A stretch of DNA of 64,000 nt from Gottschalkiaceae bacterium SANA (lineage in GTDB: Bacteria > Bacillota > Clostridia > Tissierellales > GPF-1). Of this stretch, positions 21,446 through 23,536 are shown one piece after another. The stretch's first letter is position 1. Every line of letters starts with the position of its first letter. The notes below the pieces were generated by a model that had not been told where the DNA came from, made no database searches, and worked only from the letters and a program-made list of their open reading frames with translations. Where the stretch lies: contig AP028876.1 of the NCBI GenBank assembly GCA_036323355.1, forward strand, positions 2,232,001-2,296,000, read 5' to 3'. The translations under genes and the position numbers were made by a program.

Positions 21446-23092
21446 TTAGCCAATTTGATGCCCTTGCTTCTCTTCCTTGGTTGCCACACGAATAAATCCC
21501 GTAATGCCCCAACGAATAAATTGGTTGATATAATATTGATTGCATTTGGAGCAATGCAGCAATCGAACCTTTTGATAAACACCATTCTGGTTGAGATCCC
21601 GTTCTGATTTACTAGGGAAAGTTTTTAAAGATACTTCTTGATATGTCAATGCCGTTTCATCCAGCGGACAAATTCGTCCTTCTCCGCCAACCAAATATAC
21701 CGTTTCTACCTTCTGCAATTTTTCTTCATCGGTTGACTCAGTTCCTGCCAAAACGACTTCCGGTCTCGTCGCTAGTTCAATTTTTGATTCCTTATTTTCT
21801 GATTCAATCGAAATGGATCCCAGTCTCACCTGCTCGGCCTTTGCTTGTAAGCGTTCTTTCATCATTGGAAAGACTCGCTCGCGGATTTGGTCATCCACAT
21901 ACCGCATAAAGGTTGATCGATCATCAAATTGATCCAATGCAGATCCAACATTTCTTCCGTCATGAACGGCATCCGCATATTCTCGATACAATTTGGCCTC
22001 TGGTATAGGCAGCAAAATTTTCGCCTTCATTCCCTGCAAATTTTCTTTTATAACTTGGTCCTGATCAAAGAAAAGAGCCATATACAACAAAGCCCATGAT
22101 TGATCATCTCGCAAGGTCATACTTTGAAGAGTTCCACGATCCCGATTGATCCGCATCCAATGTTTGAATTCATACTTCATCGACATTTGGAAGTAAAGCA
22201 CACTTAAATCCATCAAGATTTCCGGGCTAGCCTCTCTCGAAAGAAGAACAGTTTCTAAGCTTCCATGATTCAACTTTATAAAGGTACGAATTGGATCAAA
22301 TAACTGCCTAGCTACTGCAAAGCGAATCATTTGTACAAATCCATCCCAAACAAGAGCTTCCTGCCCGCTCGCACTTACAATTAACTGATCCATAAAATCA
22401 AAATAAGAACGTATCGTTTCTGGATCATCAATTTGCCATTCCGCCTCACGCAGAAGTAAGAAGTCAACAGCAGTCTTTCGATCACCCTGTTTTAATGCCC
22501 TTATGGCTGGTGCAAAGAAATTAGAATCCGCTTGTTCCACCAAACTCGGTTCTTTCGTTTCCTCTCGCAAATCCATTGCAAATGTTGACTTGCCATGAGA
22601 AATATGCTCTGACGGTCTAGTTGAAGCATGAATTGCCGACGGATTTTCGAGCCCTGATCCCGATTGTTCAAGATCAATTCTAAAACTTGCTTTATGAGAT
22701 CTTGTCGCCTCAGAACTTGCATTCTGTTCAACCAATGACTCTGAACTACCCATTTGTTTCTGAATAAAGCTGGCTCGCTTCAACAACTCGTCATAGGTTT
22801 CTTCCGCTTGCGGCGTAGATGGTACAATCTCTTTCGTCGGCATTGCAATTACTTGACCCGATTCGGCTAATCGCTCATTCAAGTCTTCAATCTCACGCTT
22901 TGCATCCGCCAATTCCCCAACCAATGAATCAATTTGTTTTTTCGCCATTTTAAGGTGAATTTGGGTTTCTTTCAACTCGCGGTCACGAGATTTTAACTCT
23001 TCCAAAGCCCATTGGGTAAATTCATTCAATTGTTGAGCCAATTGTTGAAAGTTCTCTTGCGCGCGTTGAAAATTTCTTTCATTAAAACCCAT
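21446..23092 (-). CDS. uncharacterised coiled-coil protein with C-terminal cysteine pairs
   Basis: Not recognised as a known family. The 548-aa protein has no signal peptide. Residues about 10-85 form a charged coiled coil, residues about 85-185 are polar and low in complexity, and the rest looks helical and repeat-like. The C-terminus has CPLDE followed about 45 residues later by HCSKCNQYYIN, which could be a split zinc site. It starts 15 nt after the stop of the selenocysteine glutaredoxin gene, with its own AGGAGG, so the two are cotranscribed. A role in redox or metal handling is a guess from this context only. Confidence 0.75.
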   Translation of the reverse strand: MGFNERNFQRAQENFQQLAQQLNEFTQWALEELKSRDRELKETQIHLKMAKKQIDSLVGELADAKREIEDLNERLAESGQVIAMPTKEIVPSTPQAEETYDELLKRASFIQKQMGSSESLVEQNASSEATRSHKASFRIDLEQSGSGLENPSAIHASTRPSEHISHGKSTFAMDLREETKEPSLVEQADSNFFAPAIRALKQGDRKTAVDFLLLREAEWQIDDPETIRSYFDFMDQLIVSASGQEALVWDGFVQMIRFAVARQLFDPIRTFIKLNHGSLETVLLSREASPEILMDLSVLYFQMSMKYEFKHWMRINRDRGTLQSMTLRDDQSWALLYMALFFDQDQVIKENLQGMKAKILLPIPEAKLYREYADAVHDGRNVGSALDQFDDRSTFMRYVDDQIRERVFPMMKERLQAKAEQVRLGSISIESENKESKIELATRPEVVLAGTESTDEEKLQKVETVYLVGGEGRICPLDETALTYQEVSLKTFPSKSERDLNQNGVYQKVRLLHCSKCNQYYINQFIRWGITGFIRVATKEEKQGHQIG

Positions 23093-23107: not shown

Positions 23108-23446
23108 TTAGGTTTTGATAACAAATTGATTTTGGCAAGCCGAGCATCGAACACGAATCTTCCCTTTTCCTTTGGGAATTCTGATCTTTTGTCCGCAATG
23201 CGGACATGCCTCAATTTTAATTTTCACATGGGCTTTGATCCACTCTGGAGAAAATCCCACTTGCTGCTCGTTTCCAATTACAAAAGACGGTACGCCCGTC
23301 ATTTGCCGCTGCATCATTTCCTGACGCGCAGCAGGATCTCGACTAATATCCCGTTCGATAAATCGATATCCTTCCTTCCGCAAAAAATCCTTTGCGGTTC
23401 CACAATGCGGTCATGTGGGTGATGTATACATAATAAGATCTTCCAT
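23108..23446 (-). CDS. selenocysteine-containing glutaredoxin fused to a zinc ribbon
   Basis: The reading frame from ATG 23446 to 23108 is interrupted only by a TGA at 23411-23413 (codon 12). Around it the protein reads YTSPT-U-PHCGTAKDFL, so TGA stands exactly where glutaredoxins have the first active-site Cys of C-P-x-C. The rest has the glutaredoxin TGVPSFVIG cis-Pro motif and ends in a zinc ribbon of the MJ0042 kind (CPHCGQKIRIP...VRCSACQNQFVI). A SECIS-like hairpin lies just after the UGA. Ribosome site AAGGAAGG is 9 nt upstream. The product has 112 residues including Sec. A gene finder that takes TGA as stop would call only the last 91 codons from an artificial TTG at 23383. Sec glutaredoxins are known in a few clostridia. 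Confidence 0.88.
23378..23413 (-). promoter_or_regulatory. Sec UGA codon and bacterial SECIS-like hairpin
   Basis: After UGA (23411-23413) there are 13 nt, then CCGCAAA (23391-23397), a 6-nt loop GGAUUU (23385-23390) and UUUGCGG (23378-23384). The 7-bp stem, the loop starting with G, and a loop that begins 20 nt after the UGA fit the usual bacterial SECIS geometry. Confidence 0.8.
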
Positions 23447-23478
23447 GCTAATTTTCCTTCCTTAACCTTCTTTCCTAT

Positions 23479-23507
23479 ATTTTACTTTGGATCACAAGAA
23501 ATAGCAA
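23479..23507 (-). promoter_or_regulatory. possible promoter of the glutaredoxin operon
   Basis: TTGCTA (23502-23507), 17 nt and TAAAAT (23479-23484) on the minus strand, about 33 nt before the start codon. The -35 abuts the terminator stem of the upstream gene. Confidence 0.5.
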
Positions 23508-23531
23508 ACCCCCTTCAAAAGGGGGTTTGCT
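23503..23531 (-). terminator. terminator after the secreted metallopeptidase gene
   Basis: AGCAAACCCCCTT pairs with AAGGGGGTTTGCT over 13 bp with a 3-nt loop. It lies 5 nt after the stop codon. The U tail is short, but the stem is strong. Confidence 0.8.
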
Positions 23532-23536
23532 AAAGC

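Follow-up and report, generated by a model that had tools for sequence, protein, structure and literature searches.

Whether a single in-frame TGA encodes selenocysteine (Sec) in a small glutaredoxin, and what the four-cysteine tail of that protein might do, are the questions raised by a locus in the 64,000-nucleotide stretch of DNA analyzed here (the window). To address them, we examined the reading frame and its product, the same codon in relatives, the RNA downstream of it, and the Sec genes of the genome.

A TGA codon occupies the active-site position of a glutaredoxin-like frame

Translation of the minus strand of positions 23108 to 23446 with TGA read as Sec gave a product of 112 codons followed by TAA, in which the sole in-frame TGA is codon 12 (23413 to 23411) and the N terminus reads MEDLIMYTSPT-U-PHC. 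Translation of the plus strand of the same interval gave no comparable product. A preliminary description of this DNA had the coordinates right, and its placement of a single TGA where the first active-site residue belongs (T-U-P-H-C) was borne out; the strand, which it did not give, is minus. The mechanical open reading frame (ORF) called without recoding is a 91-residue frame with a TTG start (23108 to 23383), so that 21 codons and the UPHC active site of the fusion are lost, as that description had anticipated for standard gene calling. The features of the locus are as follows.

23108 to 23446, minus strand: predicted Sec glutaredoxin with a C-terminal zinc-ribbon-like domain, 112 residues plus TAA (translation with TGA as U; Sec and Cys homologues)
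23411 to 23413, minus strand: in-frame TGA, codon 12, predicted Sec in the motif T-U-P-H-C (TGA in 25 fetched genes, window gene included; Cys codon in 11)
23378 to 23397, minus strand: hairpin resembling a bacterial SECIS, with 8 pairs and a GAUU loop, 13 nt from the TGA (folding, recoding test, codon test, covariation in relatives)
23222 to 23446, minus strand: glutaredoxin domain, residues 1 to 75 (PF00462 at residues 5 to 60; PDB 7c10 over profile positions 2 to 75)
23111 to 23221, minus strand: zinc-ribbon-like tail, residues 76 to 112, with Cys 81, 84, 101, and 104 (Zn_ribbon_4 below cut-off; four Cys invariant in 25/25)
23456 to 23463, minus strand: AAGGAAGG, probable ribosome-binding site, 9 nt upstream of the start codon, ATG at 23446 (sequence reading)
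23502 to 23532, minus strand: hairpin resembling a terminator, in the gap between the Sec glutaredoxin gene and the InhA-like gene upstream of it (folding)
21446 to 23092, minus strand: downstream gene, 548 residues, 15 nt after the stop of the Sec glutaredoxin gene

A frame that stays open across a TGA would also be expected if this codon were generally reassigned in the genome, for example to Trp or Cys, and the open frame is all that speaks for this reading. TGA terminates 7 of the 47 window frames of at least 200 residues, which argues against general reassignment. Moreover, homologues without the TGA carry Cys, none of them Trp, and the genome has a full Sec system (see below). We therefore give general reassignment virtually no credence.

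The predicted protein joins a glutaredoxin domain to a four-cysteine tail

The Pfam glutaredoxin profile PF00462 runs across the TGA, covering residues 5 to 60 with a score of 56.4 bits (gathering cut-off, 22.9), in agreement with the earlier claim that the parts on either side of the TGA belong to one glutaredoxin. The glutaredoxin fold is marked by a C/U-x-x-C site and a Val-Pro (cis-proline) motif. In an alignment of 25 family members (22 Sec and 3 Cys forms), all of which matched PF00462 at E ≤ 0.001, the columns for both marks are invariant, namely, position 12 (U or C), Cys15, and Val52-Pro53. A structure predicted with AlphaFold2 from a two-row alignment had a pLDDT of 56.9, too low for the model to be informative.

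The tail had been called an MJ0042-like zinc ribbon in the preliminary description, an assignment that held in kind but overstated the strength of the profile match. Zn_ribbon_4 (PF13717) matched residues 80 to 108 of the window protein (E = 1.1e-5) with 25.6 bits, below its cut-off of 30.3, and 17 of the 25 members matched it at E ≤ 0.001. The MJ0042 profile TIGR02098 was matched by 3 of the 25 and was absent from the matches of the window protein listed at E ≤ 0.001. Cys 81, 84, 101, and 104, which form two CxxC pairs, are invariant in all 25 members. Judged by two lines of evidence, profile likeness and cysteine conservation, the tail most likely binds zinc and would be a putative module for docking to, or recognizing, a partner.

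The same cysteines could instead make up a second redox center in a genuine selenoprotein, with the two CxxC pairs exchanging electrons with the Sec site. Their invariance is compatible with this role, as is a weak similarity to a family of small dual-CXXC (seleno)proteins (NF041197; 19.8 bits versus a cut-off of 40). However, zinc ribbons are the tail's best profile matches, and the tail cysteines are retained with either U or C at the active site, a comparison made partly by eye. We consider a second redox center unlikely, if still a serious contender, and prefer the zinc-binding tail. The window protein had no NCBIfam match above that profile's cut-off, and ten other members likewise had none above cut-off among the NCBIfam matches listed at E ≤ 1e-10; among the Pfam and NCBIfam matches listed, none spanned both halves of the protein.

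At this site, relatives carry either TGA or a codon for Cys

Full-length copies of the fusion numbered 37, 26 with TGA and 11 with Cys. The order (249 genomes) contributed 14 copies in 13 genomes (11 with TGA, 3 without), a phylum draw (398 genomes) 12 more, all with TGA, and a class draw (391 genomes) 10 more (3 with TGA, 7 without); one named Cys copy is that of Acetoanaerobium noterae (Bacillota; NZ_CP154629.1, 422743 to 423078). These searches overlap in part. Copies in the order and phylum searches were counted as full length at E ≤ 1e-20 with a match over at least 108 model positions, and the class search used E ≤ 1e-37, so weaker fusions were missed there. With the window's genome counted each time, the fusion occurred in 13 of 398 phylum genomes, 11 of 391 class genomes, and 13 of 249 order genomes. 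It adds one more architecture to the catalogue of bacterial selenoproteins, thinly but broadly spread. One genome (G134) holds both forms, Cys and TGA, on contigs C5 and C151. The A. noterae record is a 2.6-Mb sequence labelled plasmid pTPELB2, with four annotated features, and is more likely a chromosome.

We read 36 of the copies at the DNA level. All had either TGA (25, the window's included) or a Cys codon (11) at the site, and no other residue was found; the preliminary description had named a stop or unrelated sequence in close homologues as evidence that would count against Sec. One TGA copy (G134:C151) was counted from a table and not fetched and is therefore among the 26 TGA copies but not among the 25 Sec rows. 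These data bear directly on the possibility that the TGA is a true stop, or results from a sequencing error or a pseudogene, and that only a shorter protein is made from the downstream TTG. The 91-residue mechanical ORF needed for this does exist, but its product would lack the active site, the residues preceding the site align across members, and TGA recurs at this codon in genomes of 15 family codes. We find it very improbable that only the short protein is made, and we take the full 112-codon frame as the gene.

The family profile matched in 221 of the 249 order genomes; most of the matches listed end near residue 76 and are short glutaredoxins without the tail. TGA was present in 9 of the 51 short glutaredoxin rows examined (L048, L093, L095, L101, L103, L104, L105, L107, and L108), at the same site as in the fusion. 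In a tree of 76 glutaredoxin domains, 3 architecture changes and 2 Sec/Cys changes were needed among the fused proteins; because this tree is built on few columns, it does not settle whether the fusion had a single origin. Two short Sec glutaredoxins, L093 and L095, group with the fused ones there. The full-length tree of 36 rows needed 5 Sec/Cys changes, of which only 1 was forced by starred branches. No phage match to the family was found at E ≤ 1e-8, and in 7 viral-contig loci the match was limited to the glutaredoxin part (at most residues 4 to 71).

A hairpin follows the TGA and stands out where the codon is TGA

Rfam includes models of the bacterial SECIS. A scan of Rfam gave one match, which was below threshold and was not a SECIS. 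Folding predicted that positions 23397 to 23390 pair with 23385 to 23378 in 8 pairs (7 plus one G-U) with a GAUU loop, at −9.6 kcal/mol and 13 nt from the TGA; the preliminary description had noted a 7-bp hairpin with a G-first loop at a suitable distance, and this structure matches it with one G-U pair more. The part of PMC1088965 available to us describes the bacterial SECIS as a hairpin just 3′ of the UGA whose small apical loop contains a G, and the window gene has such a hairpin in that place. Of 200 dinucleotide shuffles, 3 folded as well as the native sequence over a 27-nt stretch and 10 did so over a 52-nt stretch (z = −1.84).

To compare Sec and Cys forms, we recoded the stretch 13 to 39 nt after the site synonymously 2000 times with local codon usage. 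In a first run, 16 of 22 Sec rows and 0 of 3 Cys rows had z below −1.5; 6 of the 22 Sec rows (L056, L057, L059, L063, L090, and L092) folded no better than their recodings. In an enlarged run, the corresponding figures were 20 of 25 and 0 of 11, 17 Sec rows and no Cys row reached p < 0.05, and 5 Sec rows had a weak hairpin. The mean z was −2.61 for Sec rows versus +0.31 for Cys rows (Mann-Whitney p = 3e-6), p-values here being rough because the rows are phylogenetically related. Six of the 11 Cys rows had no structure (0.0 kcal/mol), and one (L141) formed a 6-pair hairpin of −4.4 kcal/mol that was unexceptional against its recodings (p = 0.44). The 26 Sec and 11 Cys copies amount to a natural experiment in which the hairpin is prominent in the Sec forms but unremarkable in the Cys forms.

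The stem register varies between lineages, and covariation was therefore counted on two groups. Rows were assigned to these groups by predicted register, which favors the structure, and 17 of the 22 Sec rows known at that point were included; L025, L058, L027, L063, and L092 have the stem in another register and were excluded, and L057 and L059, identical over the hairpin, were entered as one. In one register (10 sequences), both sides of the stem had changed in 6 cells, a number reached by 1 of 500 shuffles; in the other (6 sequences), this was so in 5 cells, reached by 0 of 500. In neither register did any of 500 shuffles reach the covariation score. For changed pairs and for pair types, the counts did not clearly exceed those of shuffles, being reached by 244, 226, 77, and 81 of 500. 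When three congeneric species were compared, synonymous changes had occurred in 0 of the 7 degenerate codons of the hairpin versus 45 of 72 codons elsewhere (Fisher p = 0.0019); the same test on species pairs taken singly was not significant (p = 0.09 twice). Together with the conservation of TGA or Cys at the site, the absence of synonymous change in these codons makes a chance hairpin unlikely.

The genome encodes a complete Sec machinery

We searched the genome that contains the window, a single contig of 3.49 Mb, for SelA, SelB, SelD, and tRNA-Sec. The corresponding genes are clustered at 1375534 to 1382169 on the same contig, with scores of 390 bits for SelD (cut-off, 125), 479 for SelA, 334 for SelB (cut-off, 242), and 75 for tRNA-Sec (cut-off, 47), the last with the anticodon UCA according to ARAGORN. 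The selA, selB, selC, and selD genes, which the preliminary description had proposed to look for and whose absence it held to be fatal to its reading, are thus all present in one cluster. The remaining SelB, SelD, and tRNA-Sec matches in the genome were below their cut-offs. Two further matches to the SelA profile (49 and 48 bits) were above the Pfam cut-off of 22.8 with about half of the profile covered, and we take them to be probably other PLP enzymes. As controls, 14 named genomes gave an above-cut-off tRNA-Sec in 5, and SelA, SelB, and SelD in 2 each. With the frame, the site, and the hairpin, these genes make it almost certain, as judged from sequence, that the locus is a real selenoprotein gene. 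The selD gene itself (G000:C1:1375534-1376457, L021) contains an in-frame TGA, which makes the selenophosphate synthetase of this genome probably a selenoprotein too.

SelA was present in all 26 Sec-form genomes versus 4 of 9 Cys-only genomes (Fisher p = 3.9e-4; p = 1.5e-3 without one 71%-complete genome). Because 16 of 20 order genomes lacking the fusion had it as well, SelA by itself is a poor predictor. The selA gene is missing from 5 of the 9 Cys-only genomes, and the family could serve to test in what order the steps of the Sec/Cys exchange took place.

Relation to known Sec glutaredoxins and proposed mechanism

Kim et al. reportedly described, in 2011, a selenocysteine glutaredoxin, Grx1, of Clostridium (Alkaliphilus) oremlandii, presumably the protein in PDB entries 7c10, 7c12, and 7c13. 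Among PDB chains, 7c10, named glutaredoxin, matched the family profile best (E = 4.9e-29); its 84-residue chain aligned to profile positions 2 to 75 only and has no tail. In the available portion of PMC4479559, mutants of C. oremlandii Grx1 are named U13C, which places Sec at the first active-site position, as in the window protein. Sec glutaredoxins as such are established: Table 1 of PMC13188914 places one with UxxC under "experimentally verified," PMC9312934 lists one, and PMC1794560 has two in a single Alkaliphilus, as far as the accessible parts of these sources go. The zinc-ribbon fusion, a combination of which the preliminary description knew no account, had no description that we found in the titles and abstract openings of the open-licence literature. 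The fusion is a new architecture within an already known selenoprotein class.

Other glutaredoxin-like families resemble the protein less closely. The YruB-family model TIGR02196 gave the top NCBIfam score for the domain and matched 25 of 25 members at E ≤ 0.001, but it is a 74-position model without the tail, the window protein scored 64.7 bits against a cut-off of 88.55, and none of the 11 members with scores seen reached that cut-off. Uxx-star (NF041212) and the HUGP/GUXX-star fusion (NF045501) also comprise glutaredoxin-like (seleno)proteins, in the latter case as a fusion; the window protein, however, scored 47.8 bits versus 66 for the former and 33.5 versus 325 for the latter, whose glutaredoxin part is at the C-terminal end of the model. 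The accessible part of PMC13188914 gives UxxT and GxGU as the motifs of UXX-star families 1 and 2, in contrast to UPHC here.

The explanation that we hold with high confidence, taken as a whole, is that UGA-12 is read as Sec through SelB, tRNA-Sec, and the hairpin and that the product is an oxidoreductase of the glutaredoxin fold with a tail that most likely binds zinc and would serve in docking. The frame, the U/C conservation, the hairpin and its evolution, and the Sec genes are observations, and the redox chemistry draws on knowledge of the family. The ribosome, directed by SelB, tRNA-Sec, and the downstream hairpin, would decode codon 12 as Sec; the selenolate would attack a disulfide or sulfenic acid of the target, and Cys15 would resolve the mixed selenenylsulfide, making the product probably a thiol-disulfide reductase. 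The tail may bind zinc and dock to or recognize the partner. It is also conceivable, though we would not expect it, that Sec site and zinc ribbon cooperate in a two-domain family, with the glutaredoxin half reversibly oxidizing, reducing, or de-metallating a zinc-ribbon client, either its own tail or a partner bound by it. The protein would then be specialized for zinc-cysteine sites, as their redox switch or repair enzyme, rather than a general disulfide reductase.

Candidate clients, donors, and neighboring genes

According to the available part of PMC4479559, Grx is the reductant of C. oremlandii MsrA, which is a Sec protein. The window genome has one MsrA match, in contrast, with a Cys site and no TGA, so a Sec-Sec partnership with MsrA is unsupported there.

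We laid out the surroundings of 33 loci with mechanical ORFs and scanned selected neighbors. Immediate neighbors were shared only within a genus, and assigning a function from them was rejected. In the window's genus, an InhA-like gene lies upstream and the 548-residue gene, mtnP, and mtnA lie downstream; a GGDEF protein is upstream in genus g39, and a TetR-type regulator is upstream in genus g406. One protein cluster recurred in 7 loci, at varying positions several kilobases away. Neighbors at other loci included QRPTase, FMN reductase, a prismane-family protein, nitroreductase, and pyruvate-formate-lyase-like and CoA-disulfide-reductase-like proteins, among more. The presence of mtnA downstream in both the window and Acetoanaerobium was treated as coincidence, the intervening genes being different. 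At one locus (L149:5353-7065), a CoA-disulfide-reductase-like flavoprotein, below NCBIfam cut-offs, is encoded about 22 nt after a Cys-form fusion gene and is a possible electron donor. The 548-residue gene of the window, which is possibly cotranscribed with the Sec glutaredoxin gene, had no Pfam match at E ≤ 0.001; its product has a CxxC near the C terminus, and the gene adjoins the selenoprotein gene in three congeneric genomes.
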